IMG/VR virus record: IMGVR_UViG_3300009604_000042 | Location: 1-30,898 of that record | From: a virus | Strand: one strand, 5' to 3' | DNA length: 30,898 nucleotides | Shown here: positions 8,872 through 30,898 of the stretch, one piece after another | Layout: each line of letters opens with the position of its first letter | How positions within the stretch are numbered: the stretch's first letter is position 1 | Notes under the pieces: generated by a model | Database searches by the model: none | What the model saw: only the letters and a program-made list of their open reading frames with translations | What the model was told of the DNA's origin: nothing | Position numbers and translations under genes: made by a program

Positions 8872-8882
8872 GTGGGGGATAA

Positions 8883-9824
8883 ATGGTAAATCATATAAGC
8901 ATCAGCGAACGAGCCAGCTCGAGACGGTCGACGATGTCCGAGTCTCCGAGCGTCGATCTAGAGTACGTTATCGATGGCACCTCCGACGACTTCCAGGTCA
9001 AAGGGCTGATGCTCTCGACAGCTCCGACCAGCTACGACGGCCTCCCGCTGAACTCGATCACGATCAAGCCGATGGATCGTCCCGATCTCTGGGAGGCGAC
9101 AGCAACCTATGCGAAGAAGGACAAGGACGGGGACGACGACGCGGATCCAGAGGACAAGCTGGCGTTCTCCTTCGACACAGGCGGCGGGTCGATGAAGATC
9201 ACCCAGGCTCTGGAGCAGACGAGCTACGGCTCAGACGACGCGGTCTTCGGAGCTGCTGCCGCTCCTCCTGACTTCGGTCGAGCGATCAATGTCAGCAGTA
9301 ACAACGAGGTCGACGGAGTGGACATCGTGATCCCGAAGCTCTCCTGGCAGGAGACGCACACATTCCCAGCATCGACGATCACCTCGACCTGGGTGAAGGC
9401 TCTCGCCAGGAACACCGGGAAGACCAACGAGGACAGCTTCCGGGGCTTCTCCCCTGGTGAGGTGTTATTCCTGGGAGCTTCTGGGAACTACTCGGACAAG
9501 CATGTCGCGGTAACCTATAAGTTCGAGGCATCTGAGAACATGGAAGACCAGAACGTCGGCGGGATTACTGTGGAAGAGAAACTCGGCCATGAGTATCTCT
9601 GGTGCCATTATTTCGAGAGGGAAGACCCGGACGCGAAGGAACTTGTCCCGAACGTCGGCGCGATCTACGTCGCGAAAGTATACGAGAGCTTTACCTTTTC
9701 ATCTTTGGGGATCGTGAAGTCCTCGATGGACAAGAAGGACGCCGCGGTCGATCGAGATCGCCCAGGCTTCGGGGGCGGTGGTGACGAGGGCGGTGACGAT
9801 CCAGAGGATCCTGACTTCGGATAA
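8883..9824 (+). CDS. Tail-region virion protein of unknown function
   Basis: The 313-residue protein directly follows the tape measure, a place often filled by distal tail or tip proteins. It is predicted to be beta-rich, with segments such as DLEYVIDGTSDDFQVKGLM, LWEATATYAKKDKDGDDD, FLGASGNYSDKHVAVTYKFEASENM and ALIVKYESFTF-like strands near the end (VAKVYESFTFSSLGIV). The C-terminus is a G- and D-rich flexible tail. The acidic inserts KDKDGDDDADPEDK could bind cations. GGTGGGGGAT lies before the ATG. I do not recognise a named family with certainty; a virion role is inferred from position and composition. Confidence 0.6.
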   Translation: MVNHISISERASSRRSTMSESPSVDLEYVIDGTSDDFQVKGLMLSTAPTSYDGLPLNSITIKPMDRPDLWEATATYAKKDKDGDDDADPEDKLAFSFDTGGGSMKITQALEQTSYGSDDAVFGAAAAPPDFGRAINVSSNNEVDGVDIVIPKLSWQETHTFPASTITSTWVKALARNTGKTNEDSFRGFSPGEVLFLGASGNYSDKHVAVTYKFEASENMEDQNVGGITVEEKLGHEYLWCHYFEREDPDAKELVPNVGAIYVAKVYESFTFSSLGIVKSSMDKKDAAVDRDRPGFGGGGDEGGDDPEDPDFG

Positions 9825-9833
9825 GGGGACGAG

Positions 9834-10628
9834 ATGCCGATCGAGAAAGTCCAACCGGGTCAGCCGCTGCAGATCCCCGCGTCCACCTACAACGCAATGG
9901 TCGACGCGGCCCAGGCTTTTCAGGGACATCTTCGTGGGATCGGATCGGATCCGCTCAAGTCATCCAGGTACGAGGGGACGGTCAGGGTCAGGAATGCCAC
10001 ATCGAACGCCTTCGACCGCTTCAACGTCGTCGGCCTCGGCGAGATGGTGATCAGCCACGAAGACAACGCCCAGAGCTTCTATTCTCGCCCGACCTTCGAG
10101 GCGGAGGCTCCTGTCAGGACGTCGGCCTTAAATTACGGGCGGCATGTGGCGAAGGTCGCGGTCGTCCAGGAGCCGATCAGGAGCGGTGCGATCGGATGGG
10201 CGAAGGTGGCGGGCCTGACGCCTGTCCAGGTAAACATCGTTAATAACTACGACGACATCGCGATCGTCCGACATGGGAACACGACCAGCCTAAAGAGCTG
10301 GACATCCGGGGAGAGTGGAGCGTCGATCCTCTGGCACAAGGCCGGGGAGACGGGCGTTCAGTGGTGCCTGGCTCTGCTGGGGAACTTCCGCTCCAAGTTC
10401 GCCTCGATGTATCGAGTCACCCTGGACGGGGAGCTGACGGACTCGACCGCCTCGATAACTGTCGACAACCTCGTCCCGATGGACGGGATCCAGCACCTCG
10501 ACACAGACAGCCTGACGGCTCACAATGTTTTCGCCTGGGCCGGGAGTGATGGCGCGAACGCCCTGGTCGTCTGGAATAATCACATCGGCCTCGAAAGGTG
10601 GGAGCTGATCCAGCTCGACTGTACATAA
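9834..10628 (+). CDS. Probable virion protein of unknown function
   Basis: The 264-residue product has a short N-terminal region (MPIEKVQPGQPLQIPASTYNAMVDAAQAF) that resembles an anchoring helix, then beta-rich sequence (YEGTVRVRNATSNAFDRFNVVGLG, HVAKVAVVQEPIRSGAIGWAKVAGLTPVQVNIV) and a C-terminal part with GVQWCLALLGN. The phrase FDRFNVVGLG and the GxIGWAKVxGLTPVQVN pattern suggest a repeating virion decoration or fibre-type protein made of jellyroll-like modules. GGGGACGAG precedes the ATG, 9 bases after the previous stop. It lies in the tail accessory block; no specific function is claimed. Confidence 0.55.
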   Translation: MPIEKVQPGQPLQIPASTYNAMVDAAQAFQGHLRGIGSDPLKSSRYEGTVRVRNATSNAFDRFNVVGLGEMVISHEDNAQSFYSRPTFEAEAPVRTSALNYGRHVAKVAVVQEPIRSGAIGWAKVAGLTPVQVNIVNNYDDIAIVRHGNTTSLKSWTSGESGASILWHKAGETGVQWCLALLGNFRSKFASMYRVTLDGELTDSTASITVDNLVPMDGIQHLDTDSLTAHNVFAWAGSDGANALVVWNNHIGLERWELIQLDCT

Positions 10629-12506
10629 ATGCCTGGCTTCCCCTGTTGCTGTACTGGTTGTGACATCGCCTCGGACGAGTTCGATCGGGCGAGCGTGGGG
10701 GCGGGCTGGACTCAGGTCGCGGGGACTTGGGCGATCTCCTCGAACCGCCTCGAGACCAGCGACTCGGACGCCTTGGCGATCTTCGCGACAGATCACCCCG
10801 AGGAATCCAGCTCACACCACATCAGCGTCCTGGGGCAAGTGTCGGACACCGAGAGCAAGATCCGGGGGGTCGTCGCTTATGACTCAGCCGATGACTATCT
10901 GTCTGTGGAGCTGATGATCAACACCTCCGACTGTTCGGAGATCAAGTTCTTCGAGCGGGTCGGCGGGTCGACCTCTCAGGTCGGGGACACCAGGAAGATC
11001 GGGATCCTGGCGACGGGGACGGACTATCGTCTCGAGGTCTGCTTCCAGGATGACACCTATCCAAACGACGACGGGGAGCTATGTGTGAAGCTGTCACTCT
11101 CTGACGGCTCTCACTCCTGGACGTTCTGCGAGTCGTCCATCACGGCGACAGGCGACCAGGTGGGACTGGGGACGGGGACGCTGACCTCGAGCGGGTCGGC
11201 GAGCTTCGAGAGCTTCGAGTGGAACAAAAGTAAGAAGGATCAAGGGAGCTGTCCTGATTGCAAGGGATCGACCTGTCTCCTCCTGGAAGATGCTTTCACC
11301 AGGGCCGACTCGACTGATCTGGGATGCAACTGGACGGAGACCAGCGGATCCTGGGAGATCGACGACAACGAGCTGGTGACCTCGAGCGCGTCGGCCCAGG
11401 CGACGACGACGATGACGAACTTTCGGCCTGAGTACGGGATCATCGGAGGGACTGTCCGCTTCGGGACTGGGCCGTTCGATACCGATGCGCTGGGAGATGT
11501 TGCGCGGATGATGCTGGACGTGGACGGAAGTAACTCCCACGCTTTACAAATTACCTGCGGCGTCTCGGCGCCCGCCCCAGGCTTCGGGAAGGTGGAGCTT
11601 CTCAAGGGAACGACAGTCCTCGCGACGGTTGTCAAGGTGATCCAGCCGGGGGTCGATTGGAACTTCACAGTCTGTCTTCAAGATGCCTATATCGAAACAG
11701 ACATCCATTCCGTTTCGGGTTCCGGAGTTGTCGGGGATCAGCTTCACCTGGACGCCGTAACGACCCCCTACGGCGGTGACAAGGCCGCTCTCGGGACGGG
11801 ATCCGGGAACAGCTCGATCGTCACCTTCGACTATTTCATCTGGCAGAGAGCAAAAAACTCAGACGACATGGACTGCCCAAGCTGCATCGATGAGGAATTC
11901 TGTGGAGCTTGCGAAGGCGACGTCGCTCCGTCGCTTTTCAAGGTCGCGGTCTCTGGATTCTCGCCGGGGGCTGGGACGCAGGAGGTGAACCGATGGGATT
12001 GTCCCGGCACCCCGGACGATTCAGGATCCGGTGCCTGTCCTGATTGTGAGTGTGAGTGTGACATCAACGGAACTTTCATCCTCTCCAAGACAATGAGCAC
12101 AGACACAGAGTGTCGCTGGGAGGCCGACGCTCCAAATGGATCTTTCAGTTGTGGCCCGTATGGGGCGCAGCACGTCTACTTGCTCCAGATCGGTCATGAC
12201 GGAACAAATCACTTCGTATCACTTCTCCATATCAATCCTCTCAGTATCGCCTGGAATTCTGGCCCGACGTGCGGAACCGTCGATCGATGTAATAGAGATT
12301 ACACTTATTGGAGGAGGGACTTCCAAACAAAGCCCGATTGCTTATCGATATTCGATATGGAGCTTCCATTCCATTCGACAAATCAGACCTGGCACGAAAA
12401 CAAGCCGCCTGGACAATGGCTGATCGGAAAGCATGATGCCTGCTTTAACGATGACTATCTGGAGTGTGTACACGATGAGTCATCAGTCAGGATTACCGCC
12501 CTATGA
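10629..12506 (+). CDS. Cysteine-rich virion protein with two LamG-like repeats
   Basis: The 625-residue protein has about 30 cysteines, beginning with PCCCTGC and including CPDCKGSTC, CPSCIDEEFCGAC and CPDCECEC. Two related modules are visible: residues ~12-195 start with DEFDRASVGAGWTQVAGTWAISSNRLETS, and residues ~220-400 start with DAFTRADSTDLGCNWTETSGSWEIDDNELVTS. Such openings are typical of concanavalin/laminin-G-like jellyrolls that bind carbohydrates. A third region (from VAPSLFKVAVSGFSPG) forms a distinct cysteine-rich C-terminal domain whose DNA (about 12080-12500) is less GC-rich than the rest, suggesting a recently exchanged tip. Paired CxxC motifs could bind zinc or form disulfides in the finished particle. 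It is probably a receptor- or surface-binding tail protein (inference). Confidence 0.65.
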   Translation: MPGFPCCCTGCDIASDEFDRASVGAGWTQVAGTWAISSNRLETSDSDALAIFATDHPEESSSHHISVLGQVSDTESKIRGVVAYDSADDYLSVELMINTSDCSEIKFFERVGGSTSQVGDTRKIGILATGTDYRLEVCFQDDTYPNDDGELCVKLSLSDGSHSWTFCESSITATGDQVGLGTGTLTSSGSASFESFEWNKSKKDQGSCPDCKGSTCLLLEDAFTRADSTDLGCNWTETSGSWEIDDNELVTSSASAQATTTMTNFRPEYGIIGGTVRFGTGPFDTDALGDVARMMLDVDGSNSHALQITCGVSAPAPGFGKVELLKGTTVLATVVKVIQPGVDWNFTVCLQDAYIETDIHSVSGSGVVGDQLHLDAVTTPYGGDKAALGTGSGNSSIVTFDYFIWQRAKNSDDMDCPSCIDEEFCGACEGDVAPSLFKVAVSGFSPGAGTQEVNRWDCPGTPDDSGSGACPDCECECDINGTFILSKTMSTDTECRWEADAPNGSFSCGPYGAQHVYLLQIGHDGTNHFVSLLHINPLSIAWNSGPTCGTVDRCNRDYTYWRRDFQTKPDCLSIFDMELPFHSTNQTWHENKPPGQWLIGKHDACFNDDYLECVHDESSVRITAL

Positions 12507-17621: not shown

Positions 17622-17856
17622 ACGCCCTGACCAGTCCGTCCAGATGGATCTCCAGCCGATCCTCGAGACAATGATCCGGATCGCGATGAACCGATCCGCC
17701 GAGGGGATGAGCCTGAGCGAGATCCTGGCGGAGATCCCGGCCCAGGAGATCGTGATCAAGCTCGGCAGGATCAGCAAGCACAAAGCGAAGATCATCGTCT
17801 CGGCCCCTGACGCTGTCCCGATCACTCGCTCCGAGATCATGGAGGAGGCGACATGA
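17602..17856 (+). CDS. CsrA-like RNA-binding protein with an insertion
   Basis: The ends of the 84-residue product match CsrA/RsmA: MPLVLTRRPDQSV at the start (CsrA: MLILTRRVGE..) and EIVIKLGRISKHKAKIIVSAPDAVPITRSEIMEEA at the end, corresponding to strands 2-5 and the C-terminal helix, with Arg76 at the place of the RNA-binding Arg44 of E. coli CsrA. Between strands 1 and 2 there is an extra stretch of about 30 residues (from DLQPILETMIRIAMNRS to LSEILAEIPAQ) that looks helical. CsrA dimers bind GGA motifs near ribosome sites to control translation. Normal CsrA has about 60 residues, so this is an expanded variant. It overlaps both neighbours and so sits inside the early operon. Confidence 0.75.
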   Translation: MPLVLTRRPDQSVQMDLQPILETMIRIAMNRSAEGMSLSEILAEIPAQEIVIKLGRISKHKAKIIVSAPDAVPITRSEIMEEAT

Positions 17857-19229
17857 TGAAATATCGACACTTCGTAAAATCGAAGGCCAAGGCGGATAAG
17901 TCATCAGGCTTTGATCCAGGGCCGTTGAACGAGCATCTGTTTGAGTGGCAGGCAGACGTCGTTCGATGGGCTTTACGTCGCGGCAGAGCTGGCCTGTTCC
18001 CTGACACTGGCCTCGGGAAGACACTCCAGCAACTCGTGATCGGTGAAGAAATCGTAAAGAAGACAGGCGGCAAGTTCCTGATCCTGACGCCGCTGGCTGT
18101 GAGTGCGCAGACTGTGAGAGAGGCTGACAAGTTCAGCATCTCAGTCCCGGTGGCTGTGGCATCCTCGGCTGCGGATGTCGTCGATGGGATTACGGTTACA
18201 AACTACGATAAGCTCCACAAGTTCGACATCGAAGAGTTCATCGGAGTCGCCTTGGACGAGGCCAGCATCCTCAAGACATTCGGAGGTAAAACTCGCCAGG
18301 CATTAATCGATTCATTCCAACATACTCCATATCGATATGCACTGACGGCGACTCCATCACCAAATGATGTAATGGAGATCGGTAGTTATGCTGAATTCCT
18401 CGGAGTGATGACGAGATCGGAGATGCTGTCCACCTGGTTCATACACGATGGAGGCGACACGTCAAAATGGCGGGTGAAGCGTCATGCAGAGTTTAAGTTC
18501 TTTGAGTGGATGGCTTCCTGGTGCGTGATGTTGAATAAGCCGAGCGATCTCGGTTACTCAGATGATGGGTACATCCTGCCAGATCTGAATGTCCACGAGC
18601 ATATCGTCTCAACAGACATCCCCGATGGCTTCCTGTTTCAAAATGACGCCATCACGTTAAATGAGCAGCGAGCAGTCCGCCGAAGTTCAATCAGTGACCG
18701 TGTCTCGATTGTTTCTGACCTGGCGAATCAAAATGGAGAGCCGTGGGTTATATGGTGTAATCTTAATGACGAATCGAGAGCATCGAGCGAGGCGATCCCA
18801 GATGGCGTCGAGGTCTTCGGTAGCATGGATAATGAAGACAAAGAAGCTGCACTCCACGCCTTCGGAAATGGTGATAAGCGAGTCATTATTACGAAGCCAT
18901 CAATCGCGGGGCATGGTCTAAACTGGCAGCATTGTTCGGATGTCGCATTCCTCGGAATGTCGCATTCATTCGAGCAGTATTATCAGGCTGTTCGCCGCTG
19001 TTGGCGATTCGGGCAACGGAGCGAGGTGAATGTCCACCTGATCATGTCTGACCGCGATGGATCAATTCTGGCGAACATTAAACGCAAAGAGGCAGAACAT
19101 AATCGTTTAGTTCGAGGGATCGTTGAGGCAATGAGCGAGATCACGAGTGCGGAGATAGGTCGCCAAGAGAGACACCGCGAGGATTATGAACCTCGCCAGA
19201 CAATGAGGATACCAACATGGCTAAAGTAA
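17853..19229 (+). CDS. SF2 (DEAD/SNF2-like) helicase paired with a methyltransferase
   Basis: The 458-residue protein shows LFEWQADVVRWALRRGR (Q-like motif), Walker A DTGLGKT (51-57), motif II LDEAS (134-138), TATP (165-168), and in the C-terminal lobe SIAGHGLNWQHC and QAVRRCWRFGQ (378-388), the motif VI of SNF2-type translocases. It probably moves on DNA without classical unwinding. The end overlaps the methyltransferase gene by 13 bases. From about 17860 to 20134 the codon use changes: more AT-ending codons and fewer AGG/CGG arginine codons than in the rest of the operon, suggesting that the helicase-methyltransferase pair arrived together. It could support modification, defence against host restriction, or replication. 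Confidence 0.88.
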   Translation: MMKYRHFVKSKAKADKSSGFDPGPLNEHLFEWQADVVRWALRRGRAGLFPDTGLGKTLQQLVIGEEIVKKTGGKFLILTPLAVSAQTVREADKFSISVPVAVASSAADVVDGITVTNYDKLHKFDIEEFIGVALDEASILKTFGGKTRQALIDSFQHTPYRYALTATPSPNDVMEIGSYAEFLGVMTRSEMLSTWFIHDGGDTSKWRVKRHAEFKFFEWMASWCVMLNKPSDLGYSDDGYILPDLNVHEHIVSTDIPDGFLFQNDAITLNEQRAVRRSSISDRVSIVSDLANQNGEPWVIWCNLNDESRASSEAIPDGVEVFGSMDNEDKEAALHAFGNGDKRVIITKPSIAGHGLNWQHCSDVAFLGMSHSFEQYYQAVRRCWRFGQRSEVNVHLIMSDRDGSILANIKRKEAEHNRLVRGIVEAMSEITSAEIGRQERHREDYEPRQTMRIPTWLK

Positions 19230-20134
19230 TCGATCAACAGACTGCGGATCAGTGGGCCTTATATCAGTGTGACTGTGTCGAGGGAATCGGTGACCTGGGG
19301 GACGGAACAATTCATTACTCAATGTTCTCGCCACCATTTGCCTCCCTCTACACCTATTCAGCCTCCGATCGCGACATGGGGAACTGTCAGAATTATGATG
19401 AGTTCTCGCAACACTTCTCCTACCTGATCGCAGAACTCCATCGAGTTACCATGCCTGGTCGACTGTGTTCTGTGCATTGCATGAATCTACCAGCGACAAT
19501 GACTCATGACGGATACATCGGATTGAAGGACTTCAGGGGGGACATCATCAGATCGTTCACCGATGCAGGATTCATCTATCATTCTGAGGTGGCGATCTGG
19601 AAGGATCCAGTTACTCAAATGCAGAGAACAAAGTCTCTCGGGCTATTGCATAAACAGCTATGCAAGGATTCGACCCGCTCTCGGATGGCACTTCCTGATT
19701 ACGTCTGCACATTCAGAAAGCCGGGCGATAATCCTGAGCCTGTTGAGGGCGAGTTGGATCGATGGGTCGGAGACAAGTCGACATTCAAGCAAACAGGCAG
19801 ACTGTCAATCGACATCTGGCAGCGGTACGCATCGCCGATTTGGAGCGACATCAATCAGAGCAACACGCTACAATTTACGACCGCCCGAGATGGCCGGGAC
19901 GAGAGGCACATTTGCCCGCTTCAACTGGAAGTGATAGAGAGATGCGTCCAGCTATGGAGCAATCCGGGAGACACCGTCCTCGATCCATTCTCTGGGATTG
20001 GATCAACAGGCCATGTCGCCGTCAAATCAGGACGTCGTTTTGTAGGCTTTGAGTTAAAGGAGTCATATTTCAAGGTCGCCAGAAGGAATATGCGAGCGGC
20101 AGAGAAATCAACTCAGGAGCAGAGACTTTTCTAA
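19217..20134 (+). CDS. DNA methyltransferase, probably N4-cytosine type
   Basis: The 305-residue protein has motif IV SPPF (38-41) near the N-terminus and the AdoMet-binding motif DPFSGIGSTG (256-265) followed by FVGFEL near the C-terminus. Catalytic motif before AdoMet motif is the beta-class order; SPP rather than DPP favours N4-cytosine over N6-adenine, though this is not decisive. The ~200 residues between them contain the probable target recognition region. No restriction nuclease is seen nearby; its partner is the overlapping SF2 helicase. Likely role: modification of phage DNA against host restriction or a regulatory mark (inference). Base composition matches the helicase and differs from the other neighbours. 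Confidence 0.9.
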   Translation: MAKVIDQQTADQWALYQCDCVEGIGDLGDGTIHYSMFSPPFASLYTYSASDRDMGNCQNYDEFSQHFSYLIAELHRVTMPGRLCSVHCMNLPATMTHDGYIGLKDFRGDIIRSFTDAGFIYHSEVAIWKDPVTQMQRTKSLGLLHKQLCKDSTRSRMALPDYVCTFRKPGDNPEPVEGELDRWVGDKSTFKQTGRLSIDIWQRYASPIWSDINQSNTLQFTTARDGRDERHICPLQLEVIERCVQLWSNPGDTVLDPFSGIGSTGHVAVKSGRRFVGFELKESYFKVARRNMRAAEKSTQEQRLF

Positions 20135-20149
20135 CATGGAAGCCACAGG

Positions 20150-21757
20150 GTGAGAGCGTACATCAACGACAACAAGAGGATCCAGATCGTCGCTCCGTCG
20201 ACGCTCTCCGGCTTCTGCCGGCGGCTTCCGGGAGTCCACAGGGTCGGGGACGGCTGGACATGCAGGGCGACCCCGGCGGCGGCGTATGAACTGTCCAGCG
20301 GGACAGACCTCGAGCTGTCCGGGGAGATCGCGACTCTCGCGGTCAGGTGGGTCTCCCAGGTCGGCCCTCCGGCCTTCGAGGTGGAGCCGTCTGTCACTGT
20401 CCTCCCGCCCTGGAGCCACCAGAAGACCGCGTACAGCTTCGCCAGGCATAAGGACGCCTGTCTGCTGGCGATGGACATGGGGACAGGGAAGACGAAGGTC
20501 GCGATCGACCTGGCGGTCAACTGGCGAGCGAAGCGGATCCTCGTCCTCTGTCCGAAGAGCGTCCTCCGCGTCTGGTTCCGGGAGCTGGCCATACACATCC
20601 CCGAGCAGGTGGAGACCGACATCCTGATCCTCGACAAATGGACAGCCGCGAGGAAGGCGAAGGAGACGATCGAGTTCCTCTCCCCGATCAACGCGGAGAA
20701 GTCCCGCTGGCTGGTCGTCAACTATGAGTCGATCAGGTCGCGACAGATGGCGAACCTGGTCACCTTGAGGAATTGGGATCTGGTCATCCTGGACGAGAGC
20801 CACAGGATCAAGTCAGCGACCGGGGTGACGTCCAAGATCGTCGCCAGGATCGGCGAGAAGGCCAAAAGGAGGCTCTGTCTGACCGGTACGCCGATGCCTC
20901 ACAGTCCTCTCGACCTCTTCGGGCAGTTCCGCTTCCTCGACCCTGGTGTCTTCGGGACGACCTTCGGGAGGTTCCGCGACGAGTACGCTGTCACGCATCC
21001 GCGCTTCCCCTCTCAAGTCCGCTTCTGGCGCAACGAGGAGCAGATGAAGCGGAAGCTCTGGGAGCTGTCCTATCGCGTCGAGGCGGAGGATGTCCTCGAC
21101 CTCCCTGAAGTTCAACACATTGAGATCCCTGTCGCTCTCTCAGCGAAGGCCCAGCGGATCTATGACGAGCTGGAGAGGGAGTTCATCGCCGAGGTCAACG
21201 AGAAGCGGACGGTCACAGCAGGTCACGCCCTGGTGAGACTCCTCCGCCTCCAGCAGATCACCAGCGGCCACATCAAGGAAGACGGAGGTGAGATCCAGCA
21301 GATCGACACGGCGAAACGGGACTGTCTAAAGGACATCATGGAGGACATCCCTCCAGGTGAGCCGGTCGTCGTCTTCTGTCGATTCCGTCACGACCTCGAG
21401 CAGATCAGGGAGGTCGCCAGGATGAAGGGGATCAAGTACGGCGAGATCAGCGGATCCAGGAAAGACCTGACAGCCGAGGGGACGATCCTCCAGGAGACCT
21501 CCCTGCTGGGCGTCCAGATGGCGAGCGGGGGGCTGGGGATTGATCTGACCAGGGCGAAGCGGGCGGTCTATTACTCGATCGGCTTCTCCCTGGGAGATTA
21601 CGAGCAGAGCCTCGCCAGAGTCCACAGACCCGGACAGGAGCATCCTGTGACCTACTATCACCTGGTCGCGGAAGGAACCGTCGATCGTCGAGTTGTCAAC
21701 GCTCTCACAAAACGAAGGGACGTCGTGGAGAGCATATTGGAGGAGTTAAGACGATGA
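20150..21757 (+). CDS. SNF2-family helicase
   Basis: The 535-residue protein shows an N-terminal extra domain of ~85 residues (RIQIVAPSTLSGFCRRLPGVHRVGDGWTCRATPAAAYEL), then PPWSHQKTAYSFA, Walker A MGTGKT (110-115), DESH box (215-218), LTGTPMPHSPLDLFGQFRFLDPGVFG, typical of SNF2 proteins, and QSLARVHRPGQEHPVTYYHLVAEGTVDRRV at the end (motif VI). Proteins of this kind are frequent in siphophage replication regions. The start is a GTG at 20150; the ATG at 20136 runs into a stop after five codons. Codon use returns to the GC-rich style of the phage. The N-terminal part resembles SMARCAL1/HARP-type modules only loosely. Confidence 0.92.
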   Translation: MRAYINDNKRIQIVAPSTLSGFCRRLPGVHRVGDGWTCRATPAAAYELSSGTDLELSGEIATLAVRWVSQVGPPAFEVEPSVTVLPPWSHQKTAYSFARHKDACLLAMDMGTGKTKVAIDLAVNWRAKRILVLCPKSVLRVWFRELAIHIPEQVETDILILDKWTAARKAKETIEFLSPINAEKSRWLVVNYESIRSRQMANLVTLRNWDLVILDESHRIKSATGVTSKIVARIGEKAKRRLCLTGTPMPHSPLDLFGQFRFLDPGVFGTTFGRFRDEYAVTHPRFPSQVRFWRNEEQMKRKLWELSYRVEAEDVLDLPEVQHIEIPVALSAKAQRIYDELEREFIAEVNEKRTVTAGHALVRLLRLQQITSGHIKEDGGEIQQIDTAKRDCLKDIMEDIPPGEPVVVFCRFRHDLEQIREVARMKGIKYGEISGSRKDLTAEGTILQETSLLGVQMASGGLGIDLTRAKRAVYYSIGFSLGDYEQSLARVHRPGQEHPVTYYHLVAEGTVDRRVVNALTKRRDVVESILEELRR

Positions 21758-23379: not shown

Positions 23380-23670
23380 GTGAGCGATACGGACTGGAGT
23401 ACAGACTTGTTTCGTTTGAGGTTTTCAAAAGTAGTCGAGGGCCGTGTTGACCCTGACATTGATGAGGATAATGGATTACGAAAGCCAGTGATCGAGATGT
23501 TTATGGCTAATGAGTACGCTATTGCAGGGGTAGTAAACGCCATGTGTGCTGACGGGTGGACTTCTGAAGTGATTTGCAGAACTCGGCAATATCAATTATC
23601 AGATGGATGGTCGAGTCCTTCCGCGAGTCAGCAACATAAACTAGCAAAGGGTTTGATCAGAGAGCCATGA
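23380..23670 (+). CDS. Protein of unknown function, 96 residues
   Basis: The start is a GTG at 23380 with ATGGAGGTG seven bases before it. The product (MSDTDWSTDLFRLRFSKVVEG to HKLAKGLIREP) is soluble, with a likely helix-turn region around EMFMANEYAIAGVVNAMCADGWTSEVI and a C-terminal helix. The DNA is clearly less GC-rich than its neighbours, with many AT-ending codons, so it may be a recent insertion into the operon. Its stop overlaps the primase start (ATGA), so translation is probably coupled. No family recognised. Confidence 0.65.
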   Translation: MSDTDWSTDLFRLRFSKVVEGRVDPDIDEDNGLRKPVIEMFMANEYAIAGVVNAMCADGWTSEVICRTRQYQLSDGWSSPSASQQHKLAKGLIREP

Positions 23671-25043
23671 CAGCAATCGCGGACATCCTGGCCCTCGGCT
23701 GGAAGATCCTCCCAGTCGCCGAGAAGGGGAAGAGGCCGCTCCTGGCCCGCTGGCCTGACCTGGCGACCTCTGACCCGGACATCATCGCCGCGTGGAGCGA
23801 GAGCTTCCCTGGGTGCAACTGGGGAGTGAAGCTCGGCCCGGACAGCGGGATCATCGATGTCGAATGTGACGACGAGAGGGCCGAGGCGACCCTGGTGGAA
23901 TTGTTCGACGGGGATGTCCCTGTGACGCCGATGTTTGAGTCTCACCGGGGACGCCACAGGATCTTCCAGTTCCGAGAGGGACTCCCGGACAAGGCGGTCG
24001 TCTTCATCGACAAGCTCGAGGTCAGGATCGGAGGAGGCGGACAGGGGGCGCAGAGCATCATCCCGCCGAGCGTCCACCAGACGGGGGCGGTCTATCACTG
24101 GCTCCCTGGTCTCTCTCCCGAGGATGTGAACCCCGCCCCCCTGCCCTTCGAGGTCTTTGACCTGATCCGCCAGGAGCGGCCCAGAGGGGACAGCGGAGCG
24201 AGCTGGAAGGACGGAGTCGCCGGAGTCTCCCAGGGAGGGAGGAACATGACAGCGACCAGTGTGATCGGGAAGCTCCTCTCGTCGCTGAGGGATCCCTTCA
24301 ACAATGAGGAGGTAAACCTCCAGTTCGATCTGGTGATGGCCTGGAACCTCCAGAACGAGCCGCCGCTGGATCTGGACGAGATCCGCCTGGTCTTCGACTC
24401 CATCCTGACCAGGGAGAGACAGCGAAGGAACGACTCGGACTTCCATGAACACTTCGCGCACAAGCAACAACTCAAGACGAAGGAGGAGCCGGAAGGGGTC
24501 GACGGCTGGAGGCTGAAGATCGTCAACGGACGCCCGAGGATCTTCAAGCTCTACGCTCCCCTCTGGGAAGGGTCGATCTCGCTGACGTCGGCGATGATGA
24601 TGACGCCCAGGTCGATCATGATCCAGGCTCTCGAACAGAAGAACGTCGTCCTCGACAAGAGCTTCTCGAGGATCTGGACGGGGAAGGACGACGAGGGGGT
24701 CTGTTCCAGGCTCGTCGATACAGCCGAGGAGATCGAGCCACAGATCGAGGAACACCGAGACCTGGTCGTCGCCTCGATGCTCAGGGAACAGATCGCCAGG
24801 GCCGTCGAGGTCAGGGAAGGGAAGAAGCCGGACGGGAGCGTCCAGAGGATGGAGGGGGGGGATGTCGTCTTCAAATTTTCCGTCGTCCTGGAGCGGCTCG
24901 CCTATTCCGTCGAGCGGGTGACCAGGCCCGAGCTGTCCGGGATCCTCCACCAGATCGGAGCGAAGGATTACCAGCAGAGGAGACTGAAAAGACTCGACCG
25001 GGACAGCGTCCAGAGGCTCGACGAGATGCTGGGGAGAGAGTGA
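23667..25043 (+). CDS. PrimPol-type (AEP) DNA primase/polymerase
   Basis: The first ~170 residues match the bifunctional primase-polymerase domain: LGWKILPVAEKGKRPLLARWPDLATSDPDIIAAW, WGVKLGPDSGIIDVECDDERA (acidic metal-binding motif), FESHRGRHRIFQF (the H-containing motif) and IIPPSVHQTGAVYHWL. A PriCT-like helical segment follows (SVIGKLLSSLRDPFNNEEVNLQFDLVMAWNLQNEPPLDLDEI). Residues ~270-458 form a C-terminal domain that I do not recognise; there is no Walker motif, so the D5-type helicase usually fused to such primases is missing. It probably makes primers, or primes and extends, at the phage origin. The intergenic stretch behind it contains repeats. Confidence 0.88.
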   Translation: MTAIADILALGWKILPVAEKGKRPLLARWPDLATSDPDIIAAWSESFPGCNWGVKLGPDSGIIDVECDDERAEATLVELFDGDVPVTPMFESHRGRHRIFQFREGLPDKAVVFIDKLEVRIGGGGQGAQSIIPPSVHQTGAVYHWLPGLSPEDVNPAPLPFEVFDLIRQERPRGDSGASWKDGVAGVSQGGRNMTATSVIGKLLSSLRDPFNNEEVNLQFDLVMAWNLQNEPPLDLDEIRLVFDSILTRERQRRNDSDFHEHFAHKQQLKTKEEPEGVDGWRLKIVNGRPRIFKLYAPLWEGSISLTSAMMMTPRSIMIQALEQKNVVLDKSFSRIWTGKDDEGVCSRLVDTAEEIEPQIEEHRDLVVASMLREQIARAVEVREGKKPDGSVQRMEGGDVVFKFSVVLERLAYSVERVTRPELSGILHQIGAKDYQQRRLKRLDRDSVQRLDEMLGRE

Positions 25044-25093
25044 TGAACGGTTCCCCTATAAGACTATTTTTTACCCTCTTTTATACGTTTCCC

Positions 25094-25107
25094 CGTTCAC
25101 CGTTCAC
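25094..25107 (+). repeat. Tandem direct repeat CGTTCAC x2
   Basis: Two adjacent perfect 7-base copies in the intergenic stretch downstream of the primase. GTTCAC is partly complementary to the GTGAAGG of the 12-base repeats 45 bases further on, so the two sets may bind the same protein in opposite orientations. Confidence 0.5.
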
Positions 25108-25145
25108 TTCTTGTCTCAACTTCAACAACAGAAACAGTTTACAGG

Positions 25146-25169
25146 GTGAAGGAGTGAGTGAAGGAGTGA
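25146..25169 (+). repeat. Tandem direct repeat GTGAAGGAGTGA x2
   Basis: Two adjacent perfect 12-base copies followed by a further G. Short tandem copies like these are iteron-like. They also contain AAGGAG, but no reading frame that starts just after them looks like a gene. Confidence 0.55.
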
Positions 25170-25251
25170 GTTTAGTTTATTCACCTCTCAACTTATGGCC
25201 CTCCCTGGTGAAGCAAAACAGATAATTCCCTTATAGGGGGAGGAGATTTTT

Positions 25252-26898
25252 ATGAAAGCGGCGAGACTGATCGGCGGGGCTGGAACTGGGAAGACCACGG
25301 AGCTGATGGAGATTATGGACAAGCTCCTGGCGAGGGAGATCGGCCCGCTCGAGGTCGGATTCTGCTCGTTTACCAGGGCGGCGAGGAGAGAGGCCGCGAC
25401 CAGGGCCGGGGATCGCTTCGGTGTCCCTGTTCCTGTCCTGGAGAGGGAGGGATGGTTTAGGACGATCCACTCGGTCGCCTATAACGTCCTCGGGATCGGG
25501 GCGGAGCTGCTGGCCGGGGATTCAGCGAAGACCCGAGAATGGTTCCGGGAGACGTTCGACGAGGATGTGATCATGGAGGACTCGGACGGCTTCGCGGAGC
25601 CTTCCAGGGGGAGCGAGATCGAGACGATCCTATCCATCTGGGGAGCTGCCAGGAGCCGATTGGTCTCGCTCGCTGACCAGTGGGAGATGGTCAACGCGGT
25701 CGACAGCTCGATCCCTGACCTCGACGATTGTCGCTCTGTCGTCGATCACTATGAGCTGGCGAAGCAGGTGGACGGGCGGGTGGACTTCGCGGACATCCTG
25801 GCGAAGTTCGCCGGGAGGGAGTTCCGTCTCGATGGCCCGCTGGAGACATCACCGGACGGGGAAGTCCCCGACGTCCCGGTCTGGATCTTCGACGAGCAGC
25901 AGGATGTGACGCCCCTGCTCGACCTGGTCGCCAGGAGGCTCGCCTCTGGCCCCTCGACGAGATACGTCTACCTGGCCGGGGATCCCTTCCAATCGATCTA
26001 CGGCTTCGCTGGGGCTGATGGCTCCCTGTTCATGGACTGGGATGTCCATCAGGAGCGGACGATGGACAGGAGCTTCCGCTGTCCTGCTGACATCCTGGAG
26101 ATGGGGGAGGCCGTCCTGAGCGGTTGCTCGAATTACTTCGACAGGGGGATCCTCCCGGCAGACCATCAGGGGGAGGTCTGTGAGAGCTGGCTCCCTGACC
26201 TGGGCGATCTGGATCCGTCCGTCGAGACGCTGGTGATCGCCCGGACGAACTACATCGCCAGGACGGTCGCGTCCCAGCTCACCGCCAGGGGGATCCCCTG
26301 GTCATCGACGCGGGGATCCGGCGGCTGGCTGTCAGCGAAGAAGCGGGAGGCGATGGTGTCGCTGGGGAAGCTCTCGGACGGCGAGGCGATTAAGCTGGAC
26401 GGCTGGAAGCGGATCCTGGAGATGATCCCGGCGAGGGATTACCTCAAGCGGGGAGTCAAGAAGCGGTTCCTGTTGGACAAGGAGGAGCCAGAGGGGGACG
26501 CTGTGAGTCTCTGGAACCTGGGAACCTGGGGAGCAACCCCGGAGCTGGTGGACAGGATCGCCAGGGATGGCTGGGTCAGCCTGGTCGAAGGTGGTGACCT
26601 GTTCGTCAGAGCCGTCTCGCGGTACGGATACAAGGACGCTCTCGGGACTCAGATCCGCGTCGGTACGATCCACAGCGTCAAGGGACTCGAGGCTGACAAT
26701 GTGACCCTGATCAGCGAGTCCAGCCGGAGGTGTAGCGAGTCGGAGCGGACTCCCTGGGGAGCTGACGAGGAGCGGCGGGTCGCCTATGTCGGGATCACCA
26801 GGGCGAGGAAGAAGCTGACGATCACCAGGCCAACAGGCTCGCTCGATTACGAGATCCCGATCCCAGGAACGCGAAGACATGCAGATACCATATCATGA
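25252..26898 (+). CDS. UvrD/Rep-like SF1 helicase
   Basis: The 548-residue protein has the SF1A motifs in order: Walker A GGAGTGKT (8-15), CSFTRAARREA (motif Ia), TIHSVAY, FDEQQD (213-218, motif II), GDPFQSIYGFAGAD (motif III), RSFRCP (motif IV), GTIHSVKGLEADNV (motif V) and YVGITRARKKL (motif VI). This is a 3'-5' DNA helicase of the UvrD/Rep/PcrA kind and could be the replicative or repair helicase of the phage. The TIHSVKG form is normal for the family. GGGGGAGGAG precedes the ATG. The end overlaps the nuclease gene by 20 bases, suggesting that helicase and nuclease work together. Confidence 0.93.
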   Translation: MKAARLIGGAGTGKTTELMEIMDKLLAREIGPLEVGFCSFTRAARREAATRAGDRFGVPVPVLEREGWFRTIHSVAYNVLGIGAELLAGDSAKTREWFRETFDEDVIMEDSDGFAEPSRGSEIETILSIWGAARSRLVSLADQWEMVNAVDSSIPDLDDCRSVVDHYELAKQVDGRVDFADILAKFAGREFRLDGPLETSPDGEVPDVPVWIFDEQQDVTPLLDLVARRLASGPSTRYVYLAGDPFQSIYGFAGADGSLFMDWDVHQERTMDRSFRCPADILEMGEAVLSGCSNYFDRGILPADHQGEVCESWLPDLGDLDPSVETLVIARTNYIARTVASQLTARGIPWSSTRGSGGWLSAKKREAMVSLGKLSDGEAIKLDGWKRILEMIPARDYLKRGVKKRFLLDKEEPEGDAVSLWNLGTWGATPELVDRIARDGWVSLVEGGDLFVRAVSRYGYKDALGTQIRVGTIHSVKGLEADNVTLISESSRRCSESERTPWGADEERRVAYVGITRARKKLTITRPTGSLDYEIPIPGTRRHADTIS

Positions 26899-27169
26899 CG
26901 AGCTGGAGAGGGACATCCAGCGGAAGGTGATCGCGATGCTCAGGGGCCGGGGCTTCTGGACGCTGAACATCCACGGTGGCCCCTGGCAGACTCCAGGGAT
27001 CCCGGACGTCCTGGCGGTCAAGGACGGGAGAGCGTACTGGTTCGAGGTCAAGCGGCCAGGCCAGCCGGTGACGAAGCTCCAGGCGAAGACGCTCGAGGAT
27101 CTTCGGCTCTATGGTTGCGTGGCCGAGGTCGTCCACAGTGTGGCGGAGGTGGTCGCGTGTTTAGGATGA
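26879..27169 (+). CDS. VRR-NUC domain nuclease
   Basis: The 96-residue protein is a minimal PD-(D/E)xK nuclease of the VRR-NUC type: LERDIQRKVIAMLRGRGFWTLN (helix with the conserved E/Q), GIPDVLAVKDGRAYWFEVKRPGQPVTKLQAKTLEDLRLYG, with the D of GIPDV and the E and K of FEVK as likely catalytic residues, and a final VAEVVHSVAEVVACL. Phage members cut branched or structured DNA and are often found beside SNF2 or SF1 helicases. The start overlaps the helicase gene end. Its stop overlaps the next start (ATGA). Confidence 0.92.
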   Translation: MQIPYHDELERDIQRKVIAMLRGRGFWTLNIHGGPWQTPGIPDVLAVKDGRAYWFEVKRPGQPVTKLQAKTLEDLRLYGCVAEVVHSVAEVVACLG

Positions 27170-27427: not shown

Positions 27428-27441
27428 ACATGGAGACCACG

Positions 27442-27900
27442 ATGGCAAACGGTTGGACAAATCGCGGAAAATACAACGCCCTGGACGCGCTATTTCGGGC
27501 GACAGCTCTCCCGACTAATTACTACATCGCCCTGACAACGGACGCGCCGACAGCAGACACGAATGTAATGAGTGACCTCACTCAGATCGCGACGGGGAAT
27601 GGTTACGTTGACGGGGGGTTTACTCTGACGAAAGGAGATACCGACTTTGACGTCTTGACCGAGACGGATGGATCGGATCTCGCTCTGATCGAGGTGAAAG
27701 ATGTCGCCTGGACAGCTTCCGGGGGTACGATTCCGGCATCTGGTGACGGTGCGCGGTATGCTGTCTTGACTGGACATCATGCAACGGTCGCGAACCGGGA
27801 GGTCTGGGCGTACTGGGATCTTAGCTCGAACCGGACGGTCTCGGACACTCAAGTCCTGACTCTCGAGGATTGCCAGCTCAAGCTGACGGAGCCTAGTTAA
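27442..27900 (+). CDS. Tail fibre-associated protein
   Basis: The 152-residue product has WTNRGKYNALDALFRATALPTNYYIALTTDAPTADTNVMSDLTQIATGNGY at its start. The pattern, in which LDALFRATALPTNYYIALTT leads into sequence with GNGY, is common in small phage fibre or baseplate proteins that precede tail fibre genes. The rest is beta-rich (VLTGHHATVANREVWAYWDLSSNRTVSD). The ATG at 27442 follows ATGGAGACCACG; the ATG at 27430 contains the ribosome site. The stop overlaps the next start (TAATG), so the two fibre genes are probably translated together. Confidence 0.7.
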   Translation: MANGWTNRGKYNALDALFRATALPTNYYIALTTDAPTADTNVMSDLTQIATGNGYVDGGFTLTKGDTDFDVLTETDGSDLALIEVKDVAWTASGGTIPASGDGARYAVLTGHHATVANREVWAYWDLSSNRTVSDTQVLTLEDCQLKLTEPS

Positions 27901-28955
27901 TGACAGGATTCCGACTAGCTGACAGGGTGAAGGAGACCAGCACGACGACCGGGACAGGTACGCTGACCCTGGCCGGGGCTGTGACTGGCTTTCAGAGCTT
28001 CAATTCTGGGATCGGGGACGGAGCCTCGACGACGTTCGTGATAGAGGACTCGACGAACTGGGAGGTCACTGTGGGGAAGTACACTCACAGCGGGACGACG
28101 CTCTCCAGGGATACCCTGATCGCCTCGAGTACGGGGAGCGCTATAAGCTGGGGAGCTGGGACGAGGAACGTCTTCATCTCGGAGCCTTCGACCGCAGTCC
28201 TCCAGGGGACAGTCGTGAAGACGGCGAGCTATACCGCTCTCGCCTCCGACAGCGTGATCCTCTGCAATCCAGGTGCCGCCATGACGGTCACTCTCCCCTC
28301 GGCGGCTTCGGCGACCCTGGGGATCCGCTTCCTGGTCAAGAAGATCGACAGCTCGGCCTATGTCGTGACGATCTCAGACGGAGCCTCGGCGGATGTGGAT
28401 CACGCCTCCAGCTCGAAGCTCTACCTGGAGGGGGACTCGATCGAGTTGGTCTGTGCTTACAACGGGAGCGGATACGAGTGGCTGGCCCTGTCCCGGCGTC
28501 TCGCCCCTCACAGCGCGAAGATGGAGAACTCCGCCGCGCAAAGCGTCGGAGATTCAGCGTGGAGGATCCTCGCCTTCAATACGGTTGTGTATGAACACGG
28601 GGCAGACGCGGATGCTGGGAATGAGCGGATACAAGTAAAGCGGGCCGGAAGATATAACATTTTCGGCAGCCTGACGTTGGATCTCTCGATGGACGCCAAT
28701 GTCTGGCTCGCGATTGCTGTCATTAGTGATACTTCAACGCCCGACGGGGATGATGTCCTCGCCTACAATCTCCAGCATATAGGAACCGGTGCCTACGGTG
28801 ATTATCTTGGTACAGTTTCCACCTCCGTCGATCTAGCTGCCGACGATTATGTCTATCTGCTTTGTTACCACGACGAGGGCGGGATGATGTCTCCGAGTAC
28901 GCTCAATACGTACACCCGCCAATATACGCGGTTCTCCATTGCCGAGGTGATATAG
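27900..28955 (+). CDS. Tail fibre protein with jellyroll tip
   Basis: The 351-residue protein begins with a classical phage fibre N-terminal domain: RVKETSTTTGTGTLTLAGAV, then FNSGIGDGASTTFVIEDSTN, WEVTVGKYTHSGTTLSRDTL and SWGAGTRNVFISEP. A middle beta domain follows (ASYTALASDSVILCNPGAAMTVTLPSAASATLGIRFLVKK). The last ~140 residues (AWRILAFNTVVYEHGADADAG, AGRYNIFGSLTLDLSMDAN, TRFSIAEVI) look like a C1q/TNF-type jellyroll, a frequent receptor-binding tip. DNA of this last part (from ~28560) has more AT-ending codons than the rest, suggesting that the tip was exchanged. The N-terminal part attaches the fibre to the tail. Confidence 0.85.
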   Translation: MTGFRLADRVKETSTTTGTGTLTLAGAVTGFQSFNSGIGDGASTTFVIEDSTNWEVTVGKYTHSGTTLSRDTLIASSTGSAISWGAGTRNVFISEPSTAVLQGTVVKTASYTALASDSVILCNPGAAMTVTLPSAASATLGIRFLVKKIDSSAYVVTISDGASADVDHASSSKLYLEGDSIELVCAYNGSGYEWLALSRRLAPHSAKMENSAAQSVGDSAWRILAFNTVVYEHGADADAGNERIQVKRAGRYNIFGSLTLDLSMDANVWLAIAVISDTSTPDGDDVLAYNLQHIGTGAYGDYLGTVSTSVDLAADDYVYLLCYHDEGGMMSPSTLNTYTRQYTRFSIAEVI

Positions 28956-29465
28956 ATGGCAAGTATTGAATTTTCCGAATCTGGTAATCTGTCCGCCTTG
29001 ATAAGAATACTGGCCTGCGACCCGCTCGCGGCTTCGTACCACAACGGACTCCTCGAGATTTCGGGGGTCGATCAGGAGGACTTGGAGGCGGCTGCGGCGA
29101 CTTATGCGGCGGATCCGGAGGCCCATCTTTTCAAGCCAGCAAGAGAGGCCAGGGGGCGGGTCTTCGGCGAGCAGGTGATCAGGGAGATCGAGGGGAGGTA
29201 CTCGTCCTTCAGGCGGGAGCTGTTCTTGGCTCTTTATGTCGAGGCTGTCTCTCTCGGCCTGGTCAACAGGGCCGCTTATGTCACCCAGCTCCTGAGTTGG
29301 GTTAAAGAGGCCGTCTCGGTCTGTATTCAATACGAAGCCGACTTGGCAAGCGCCGAGTCAATTGCATCGATTGGATCTGTGAGTGATGGCTCCGAGGCGA
29401 TCATAGCCATTCTCGAGGACGACCCAGAGGTCACAATAAAGGCGGCCCTGGAGATCCTCGACTGA
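28956..29465 (+). CDS. Protein of unknown function following the tail fibre
   Basis: The 169-residue protein starts directly after the fibre stop and is mostly helical: LSALIRILACDPLAASYHNGLLEISGV, EDLEAAAATYAADPEAHLFKP, FGEQVIREIEGRYSSFRRELFLALYVEAVSLGLVNRAAYVTQLLSWVKEAVSVCIQYEADLASAESIASI and a final helix. Helical soluble proteins right after fibre genes are often fibre assembly chaperones, or small adaptor proteins; that is the best guess but is not shown by any motif. The next gene begins two bases after its stop. I see no clear ribosome site other than GCCGAGGTG inside the previous gene. Confidence 0.6.
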   Translation: MASIEFSESGNLSALIRILACDPLAASYHNGLLEISGVDQEDLEAAAATYAADPEAHLFKPAREARGRVFGEQVIREIEGRYSSFRRELFLALYVEAVSLGLVNRAAYVTQLLSWVKEAVSVCIQYEADLASAESIASIGSVSDGSEAIIAILEDDPEVTIKAALEILD

Positions 29466-29466
29466 T

Positions 29467-30540
29467 ATGTTTGGCCTCTCATCATTCTCTGAGGTTCCCT
29501 TCTCGACGCTCGTCTCAGTCGGGGAAGATGTGACGGTCTCCCCAGGGTCGAGCGAGGCGATCGCCCAGGCGACGGCCCCGTCCGCTCTCCAGGGATCCCT
29601 GACTCTCTCGCCAGGGGCGTCGATCTCGATCGCGGCGGCTGTGGATCCCTCGCTGGTGATGTCCTCCCTGACTCTCTCCCCTGGCTCCTCCGAGGCGATC
29701 GCGGCGTCTGTGGATCCGACGCTGGTGATGTCCTCCCTGACTCTCTCCCCTGGCTCCTCCGAGGCGATCGCGGCGTCTGTGGATCCGACGACAGTGATGT
29801 CCTCCCTGACTCTCTCACCTGGATCCTCTGAGGCGATCCCTGTGGCTGTGGATCCGACGCTCGTGATGTCTTCTCTGACGGCCTCACCTGGATCCTCTGA
29901 GGCGATCGCGGCGTCTCTGGATCCGTCGCTGGTGACGGACTCTCTGACGGTCTCAGCCGGGACATCTGAGTCCCTCGCTGGTGGTGTGGATCCGTCTGTC
30001 CTGCTGGGATCCATCTCCCTCGTCCCTGGGTCGTCCTCTGTGGTCGTCCAGGGCGTTCTGGGTGGTCTCATCATGTCCTCGATCAGCGTCGATCCTGGGG
30101 CGTCTGAGAGCGTCTCAGAGGGTACGGATCCGGGGGTCATTCTAGGCTCCCTGACGGCCTCTCCAGGCTCTTCGATTATATTGGCCTCAGTAGTCGATCC
30201 CACCGTGACGGCTGTCCTGGTGGTGTCTCCAGGGTCGTCTGAGGCTATACCGGGATCTGTCGACCCTGCTCTTGTGATGACATCGATCACAGCCTCACCA
30301 GGTACGAGCGAGGCGATCGCGGGCGCTGTGGATCCAGATGTCGGTCTTCTGGGGATCGTCTATGTCGACGCTCCCAGGATCCAGAGGGCGAGCTTCTCGG
30401 CCTCCCTTGTACAGTTCGCAGACATCAACAGCCCGAGGATCGAGACGACTGAGGGGACGGACGGCCTGGTCGCTGTCGCCACAGTGGACGGGGAACGGGC
30501 TGACCAATCAACGATAACCGCAACAATTGACGCGAGGTAA
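29467..30540 (+). CDS. Virion protein with twelve 23-residue repeats
   Basis: The 357-residue product has a short N-terminal segment (MFGLSSFSEVPFSTLVSVGE), similar to the F-G-x-S-x-F-S-E-x-P-F-S openings of some phage structural proteins, then 12 tandem repeats (residues 22-296) of the type LTLSPGSSEAIAASVDPTLV plus MSS, then a C-terminal segment of ~60 residues (YVDAPRIQRASFSASLVQFADINSPRIETTEG...). The repeats are strongly non-polar/small, without Cys or charged residues except D and E, and probably form a beta-solenoid or extended stalk. No enzymatic motif is present. It is likely a fibre or spacer in the tail tip. The antisense strand also has a long open frame, but that follows from codon bias. 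Confidence 0.7.
   Translation: MFGLSSFSEVPFSTLVSVGEDVTVSPGSSEAIAQATAPSALQGSLTLSPGASISIAAAVDPSLVMSSLTLSPGSSEAIAASVDPTLVMSSLTLSPGSSEAIAASVDPTTVMSSLTLSPGSSEAIPVAVDPTLVMSSLTASPGSSEAIAASLDPSLVTDSLTVSAGTSESLAGGVDPSVLLGSISLVPGSSSVVVQGVLGGLIMSSISVDPGASESVSEGTDPGVILGSLTASPGSSIILASVVDPTVTAVLVVSPGSSEAIPGSVDPALVMTSITASPGTSEAIAGAVDPDVGLLGIVYVDAPRIQRASFSASLVQFADINSPRIETTEGTDGLVAVATVDGERADQSTITATIDAR
29530..30354 (+). repeat. Tandem array of 69-bp coding repeats
   Basis: Twelve units, eleven of 69 bp and one (the eleventh, near 30220) of 66 bp. Units 3 (29668-29736) and 4 (29737-29805) differ at only three positions, in CTGGT versus ACAGT, so they are a recent duplication. Units 7-10 have diverged most. 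Nearly every unit carries GTGGATCC or a variant of it. Copy number may change by recombination. Confidence 0.85.
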
Positions 30541-30545
30541 TACTC

Positions 30546-30898
30546 ATGGCGACACGACTGAAGGACTCCAGCGGCGACTTTGTGACGATCCAGGAAGGCG
30601 AGAGCTGCAACATCACCGGGACGCTCAAGGACACCGCTGGCTCGACTGTGACCAGTCCGATCACGTTTACGATCAGCCTCCTCGATCAGTCGACCGGGGC
30701 GATCGTCAATAGTCGGAAGGATCAGGACGTCCTGAGCAGCGTCTCCGCTGGTGTGTACAGTGTGGAGCTGGACAGCTCGGACACCGCTATCGTCGGCGAC
30801 CTGGATGAGCAGACGACACAGGACAGGATCGTCCGCCTCAAGTTCACCTGGAACGATGGGGACTCCACCAGGACGGGCCTCGAGGAGTTCTTCTTCCC
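30546..30898 (+). CDS. Beta-rich virion protein, cut by the window end
   Basis: The gene starts at an ATG at 30546 and stays open to the end of the window (117 codons). The product (MATRLKDSSGDFVTIQEGESCNITGTLKDTAGSTVTSPITFTISLLDQ, then SSVSAGVYSVELDSSDTAI and DRIVRLKFTWNDGDSTRTGLEEFFF) reads as an Ig-like beta-sandwich, as found in fibre or accessory virion proteins. The rest is beyond the window. A GAGGTAA overlapping the stop of the previous gene serves as the ribosome site, 6 bases before the ATG. The function is inferred from position behind fibre genes. Confidence 0.65.
   Translation, partial: MATRLKDSSGDFVTIQEGESCNITGTLKDTAGSTVTSPITFTISLLDQSTGAIVNSRKDQDVLSSVSAGVYSVELDSSDTAIVGDLDEQTTQDRIVRLKFTWNDGDSTRTGLEEFFF

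Follow-up and report, generated by a model that had tools for sequence, protein, structure and literature searches.

Tandem repeats in tail-associated proteins are known from crAss-like phages, where the array of BACON repeats has been grown by duplication in one lineage (accessible part of PMC6949934). The array described here is likewise tandem and tail-associated, but a BACON repeat is a whole carbohydrate-binding domain whereas the present unit has 23 residues and our protein is without a Pfam match. Closer in size are the mycobacteriophage proteins of phrog_8501 (Brujita gp24, Dylan gp61 and, judged by gene order, Corndog gp64), which share with our protein tandem 23-residue units, a tail-gene context, proline as the commonest residue at positions 6 and 18 and hydrophobic residues at positions 4 and 20, but differ in the connector residues (I9 and V15 versus I12 and V16) and in the number of units (5 versus 12). 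By mass spectrometry, Corndog gp64 was detected in virions banded twice in CsCl, and Catdawg gp61 in a lysate (accessible part of PMC4351075). Catdawg gp61 is 99% identical to Dylan gp61, a protein of 133 aa with a five-unit array, and Corndog gp64 appears, from gene order and size/length, to be the counterpart of Dylan gp61. In the accessible part of a preprint on the Corndog baseplate (PMC13252515), gp61 is the 836-aa central fibre and the array protein is not resolved. A third group comprises protein 68 of Pseudanabaena phage Pam2 and the metagenomic arrays L263 and L041; it has the same 23-residue period with hydrophobic residues at 2, 4 and 20, P6 and G23, but its connector is aromatic (FTNTNTFYSP) and not of the GSSEAIAASVD type. 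A description of the 23-residue repeat was not found in the open-licence full-text literature.

The repeat-protein gene and its contig

The window is a whole virus record of 30,898 bases, a contig classed as linear and, as is often the case for this class, perhaps a fragment. It contains PHROG matches to a portal, a head maturation protease, a major head protein and a tail tape measure and, therefore, most likely derives from a siphophage. Six contigs with other sample numbers (L213-L218) encode a capsid protein 96-100% identical to that of the window; thus, the phage has close relatives, and the array region lies outside all six. Further upstream, an N6/N4 DNA methylase gene (19217-20134) sits between two genes for SNF2-type helicases (17853-19229 and 20150-21757); this trio is notable for a small siphophage and perhaps serves anti-restriction or DNA modification. 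Genes for a primase-polymerase, a UvrD-like helicase and a VRR-NUC/Hjc-like nuclease follow one another at 23667-27169, directly 5' of the fibre module. The right end of the window is organised as follows.

27430-27900, plus strand: upstream neighbour, 156 aa, weak match to Gp80 fibre protein (sub-cut-off) and to phrog_644
27900-28955, plus strand: upstream neighbour, 351 aa
28956-29465, plus strand: immediate upstream gene, 169 aa, without known family
29467-30540, plus strand: repeat-protein ORF, 357 aa
29467-29526, plus strand: N-terminal segment MFGLSSFSEVPFSTLVSVGE (20 residues) ahead of the array
29527-30354, plus strand: array of 12 units (nine of 23 aa, then 22, 23 and 24 aa)
29665-29733, plus strand: unit 3 of the recent duplicate pair, differing from unit 4 at 3 of 69 nt
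29734-29802, plus strand: unit 4 of the recent duplicate pair, differing from unit 3 at the same 3 of 69 nt
30355-30537, plus strand: C-terminal tail after the array, 61 aa, without family match
30546-30896, plus strand: downstream gene, truncated by the contig end

Searches of the 357-aa protein against Pfam (E 0.01) and PHROG (0.05) gave no match below these thresholds, and a receptor-binding domain or head was not recognisable with either library. It consists nearly entirely of the array and has a low-complexity Ser/Ala/Thr composition. Its self-match at lag 23 was 0.42, compared to a maximum of 0.17 over all lags in 200 shuffles; the 23-residue periodicity is far beyond chance. At the DNA level, Tandem Repeats Finder reported a period of 69 with 4.5 copies and 88% matches at 29627-29935. 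Among the ten 23-mers of the array (the two units of other length were left out), P6 and P18 were each present in nine. The initial annotation had described twelve 23-residue repeats at 29530-30354; the number of units and the end hold, but the array starts one codon earlier, at 29527, and the units vary from 22 to 24 aa. Two minus-strand ORFs of 212 and 310 aa cross the array (29327-30290) and most likely arise incidentally from codon usage in a gene that is repetitive and GC-rich.

A recent duplication in an older array

Units 3 and 4 had been called almost identical in DNA and, indeed, their three differences all fall within one codon and none is synonymous. The longest exact self-match at lag 69 extends over 71 nt (29651-29721). 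Identity drops on both flanks of the pair: unit 2 differs from unit 3 at 13 nt, unit 5 at 9, unit 6 at 12, unit 7 at 27 and unit 1 at 32 (units 11 and 12 were left out of this comparison). Since units 3 and 4 are nearly identical and the other units far more diverged, there was one recent internal duplication within an older, diverged array, although in metagenome assembly more than two copies of a near-identical unit might have collapsed into two. In eight of nine unit pairs tested dS was higher than dN; the exception was pair 3-4, which is too young to tell, and in pair 5-6 both values were nearly equal (0.28 versus 0.25).

These values bear on the question of whether the array could be an artefact of assembly or of GC-rich coding and not a feature of a protein, as might be suspected from its occurrence on a single metagenomic contig and from the long antisense ORFs overlapping it. 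However, the units are diverged, the protein pattern is conserved across many independent contigs and dS exceeds dN in the pairs given above. Such an artefact has next to no probability: it is refuted as far as the array is concerned, and short-read collapse could affect only how many copies the identical pair represents.

A family of 23-residue arrays in phages

A close relative of the window protein was not found in viral contigs, in phage records (tblastn) or among solved structures. The gene at 27430-27900 led to L002, whose array ORF (7446-9908) has about 13 units, the first two of them near-identical, behind a 422-residue N-terminal part. A first DNA pattern scan (A, three residues, N or D, P; three times at 69-nt spacing) yielded 83 viral stretches, and a profile of the window and L002 units picked out L082 (2.9e-40), a 337-aa ORF with 12 units. 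A second DNA scan (hydrophobic residue at 2, P6 and P18 across four units) gave at least 120 stretches. Seventy open-frame matches were examined among those listed and 41 from 34 loci passed the filter; after exclusion by eye of L242, L300 and L313 (proline-rich or other ORFs), the array set amounted to 31 ORFs among the matches listed, including the window. L147 was rejected as a member because it is a DNA-perfect repeat with a doubtful frame.

The unit pattern of the repeat family is x-h-x-h-x-P-(11)-P-x-h-x-h-G/S. Position statistics of five groups revealed a common trend with hydrophobic residues at 2, 4 and 20, prolines at 6 and 18 and G or S at 23; the mycobacteriophage group fitted worst (P6 in 8/15, P18 in 9/15). 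Positions 7-17 depend on the class, and L041 and Pam2 carry aromatic or aliphatic residues at 8-9 and 15-16. Sixteen loci of uncultured phages form class A (L333, L348, L342, L266, L264, L271, L275, L281, L283, L303, L321, L240, L331, L245, L082 and L002), and 15 of them, L002 not included, align to the window over four units without gaps and in register. Their unit is that of the window; they differ from it in being frequently fused to other domains, including LamG, and in having 9 to about 28 units versus 12. In L264, a second ORF of 1090 aa (8499-11768) gave a weaker array match.

A held-out profile was built from 21 segments of 14 other viral class-A loci, with the window, L082 and L002 excluded from training. 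It scored the window with 1.7e-57, L082 with 6e-55 and L002 with 1.3e-51; the reversed window protein scored 2.6e-26, and shuffled and unit-permuted window proteins were not among the matches. By this sequence criterion, the window's array is a member of the class-A family. Over all arrays, reversed sequences matched strongly, shuffled ones never and only one unit-permuted one did. The nearly palindromic pattern of the unit explains why reversed arrays score and makes modest E-values between classes untrustworthy; reading moderate E-values as proof of one family was rejected, since reversed decoys scored well. When a window segment was part of the profile, the advantage over the reversed copy was about 12 to 80 bits for most members of the other classes, but Dylan gp61 and L006 scored below their reversed copies. 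Mycobacteriophage arrays did little or no better than their reversed copies (Brujita 4e-13 versus 1e-10, Dylan 3.8e-4 versus 4.4e-4), and window-type and mycobacteriophage-type arrays matched weakly in a profile-profile comparison (probability 12). Because reversed decoys score well, we make no claim that the window array and those of mycobacteriophages are homologous; what they have in common is the pattern. The mycobacteriophage arrays are the only ones with virion evidence and their tie to the window is weak; the product of the window ORF may be present in the virion. Several array proteins were assigned as minor tail proteins by PHROGs, but reversed L082 and L041 matched too. The minor tail protein profile phrog_8501 matched L082 and L271 and did not match the window protein.

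Outside viruses, the profile of alignment A5, in which the prolines are invariant because the scan required them, found no class-A array at E 1e-15 or better in 595 prokaryote genomes (299 + 296). As a positive control, all 17 virus records that carry arrays were recovered at E 1e-10 or better; 16 of these have rows in A5 and L002 is the independent one. A DNA pattern scan of bacterial genomes, evaluated with the first unit profile, gave no strong array among the matches listed. The L266 and L333 arrays had no match in named phages by tblastn, which masks low-complexity sequence.

Unit number across and within lineages

With one scoring scheme, which undercounts irregular units as in L041, the 31 ORFs among the matches listed contained 7 to 28 units per array. 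The longest array counted, with at least 28 units, lies in a 2312-aa ORF of L240 (3160-10095, minus strand). Mycobacteriophage array proteins have 5 or 8 units by eye, so that the family ranges from 5 to about 28. Among the matches listed, 7 of the 31 array ORFs have a unit pair with at most three differences in 69 nt and growth by unit duplication is a habit of the family.

The range of counts, the near-identical pairs and the recent exact duplication in the window would all fit a variable-number length ruler, in which the count changes often among close relatives and tunes the reach of the fibre. However, the number did not vary wherever near relatives were available for comparison. All 31 records at least 95% identical to Dylan gp61 span its 399 nt in one piece; the three complete arrays of L255, L263 and L304 all measure 807 nt with 0 or 2 differences, on contigs that are only 89-91% identical; and three of three Mycobacterium abscessus prophage proteins have 8 units each. 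A second isolate of the window's own array was not found in viral contigs or in eleven capsid-relative records, whose contigs measure only 4.6-20.4 kb. Duplications thus occur, but unit number seems steady between the near relatives compared, which makes ongoing length tuning less likely for those phages. The initial annotation had concluded that the array is expanding or contracting and that length variation could tune receptor reach. With constant numbers in the Dylan gp61 records and the L255 group, neither statement finds support, and we consider a length ruler quite improbable.

Gene neighbourhood and domain fusions

Of 35 other array loci, all of them fragments, 13 have a gene of the 27430 type at a distance of about 2.5 kb or less from the array, and this fibre-module gene is nearby in 12 of the 16 class-A loci. 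A tail-fibre neighbourhood of the array is thereby supported. In L082, the homologue (54% identity) is located about 1.8 kb 5' of the array; two further genes in between were compared with those of the window and had no recognisable likeness. The N-terminal part of the 27900-28955 product resembles a stretch near the L263 and L285 arrays (43% over 135 aa, E 9e-10), and a search for relatives of the 28956-29465 gene found none. Homologues of the truncated downstream gene (61-64% identity) lie directly 3' of the array ORFs of L293 and L315. The segment MFGFTSFAVAPFAALS, which is close to the window's own N-terminus, directly precedes the aromatic-class arrays of L255, L263 and L304. In Xanthomonas phage PhiXhv-12 and isolate ctRVW222, the regions with a 27430 homologue contained no array by profile. 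A different DNA repeat with a 141-nt lag is present in L263 (6993-7923), 5' of the array gene; this region differs by about 10% between contigs, and the array gene is nearly identical.

Ten array proteins were scanned for domains. LamG lectin domains were above the Pfam cut-off in two (L333 and L348) and below it in two more (L264 and L321). LamG follows the array in L333 and precedes it in L348; with arrays on either side of the lectin domain, the view of the unit as a spacer linking an anchor in the virion to a distal head does not hold in every case. The presence of these lectins, the window protein being almost wholly array and the 11-residue connector being the variable, class-specific part could also be taken to mean that the array itself serves as adhesin and binds the receptor through its repeated faces, as a multivalent surface for glycans or proteins. 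Against this stand the absence of a binding-domain match (Pfam, PHROG) in the window protein, its low-complexity composition and the accessory appearance of the array in the lectin-bearing phages. A binding function of the array is, therefore, rather improbable.

Predicted fold of the array

AlphaFold2 without an alignment gave a pLDDT of 54; six units with a 15-row alignment gave a pLDDT of 66 and a pTM of 0.64, with a nine-residue strand every 23 residues. The structure prediction proposed at the outset thus returned a regular strand, albeit with modest confidence. The array is predicted to be beta-rich, and together with the lag-23 periodicity and the tail-fibre neighbourhood this agrees with the stalk that the initial annotation suggested from the unit composition. 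The single-chain models have the look of beta-solenoids, and 23 residues fits one coil of a beta-helix. Foldseek with the array models found no match at E 0.001 or better and, therefore, no fold family was assigned; VIA-align, which merely re-ranks the Foldseek list, placed beta-helices first, the best being a pectate lyase beta-helix (Z 10.6, 2.7 Å over 132 residues).

The triple beta-spiral is characterised by short alternating strands, conserved prolines and a variable connector. The same features in our unit, together with the tail-fibre context, raise the question of whether the array is a trimeric beta-fibre of this type instead of a monomeric beta-solenoid; single-chain modelling cannot show a trimer. 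The resemblance of the models to beta-solenoids and the match of 23 residues to a beta-helix coil argue the other way, but AlphaFold2 over-predicts beta-solenoids for perfect repeats (accessible part of PMC11795689). We regard the trimeric fold as possible but doubtful; it is an alternative in fold only and is compatible with a stalk.

Discussion

The array is real and well formed, ordinary in kind and new as a named family. On the demonstrated array, duplication, family membership and gene neighbourhood we base the reading that the ORF probably encodes a tail-fibre-type structural protein of a siphophage, in which the array would be a modular stalk or spacer grown by in-register unit duplication. 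Each 23-residue unit would add one beta-rich step, consisting of a constant strand segment (P18-x-h-x-h-G/S-S-h-x-h-x-P6) and a connector of 11 residues (positions 7-17) that varies more. Units would multiply when 69 nt are duplicated in register, as exemplified by units 3 and 4, and the copies would later diverge with both prolines and the hydrophobic positions kept under constraint. Other phages would reuse the unit, alone or joined to lectin-like domains, as an interchangeable extension piece.

The pattern is nearly palindromic, with reversed arrays matching the profile and shuffled ones not. This leads to a more far-reaching proposal, for which our confidence is low: the P6/P18 unit may be a structural module that has not been described before in tailed phages. 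It would be a quasi-palindromic beta step, symmetric in pattern about position 12, and would build a fibre with its own architecture; unrelated phages would have 5 to about 28 such steps stacked in their tail proteins, with the connector swapped among three classes.

Tail fibres determine which bacteria a phage can use, and fibre stalks are under-represented in family libraries, since ordinary searches fail on repeats. If the 23-residue unit had a name and could be searched for, many phage proteins now called hypothetical would gain an annotation, and there would be a clean system in which fibre length is countable in units.
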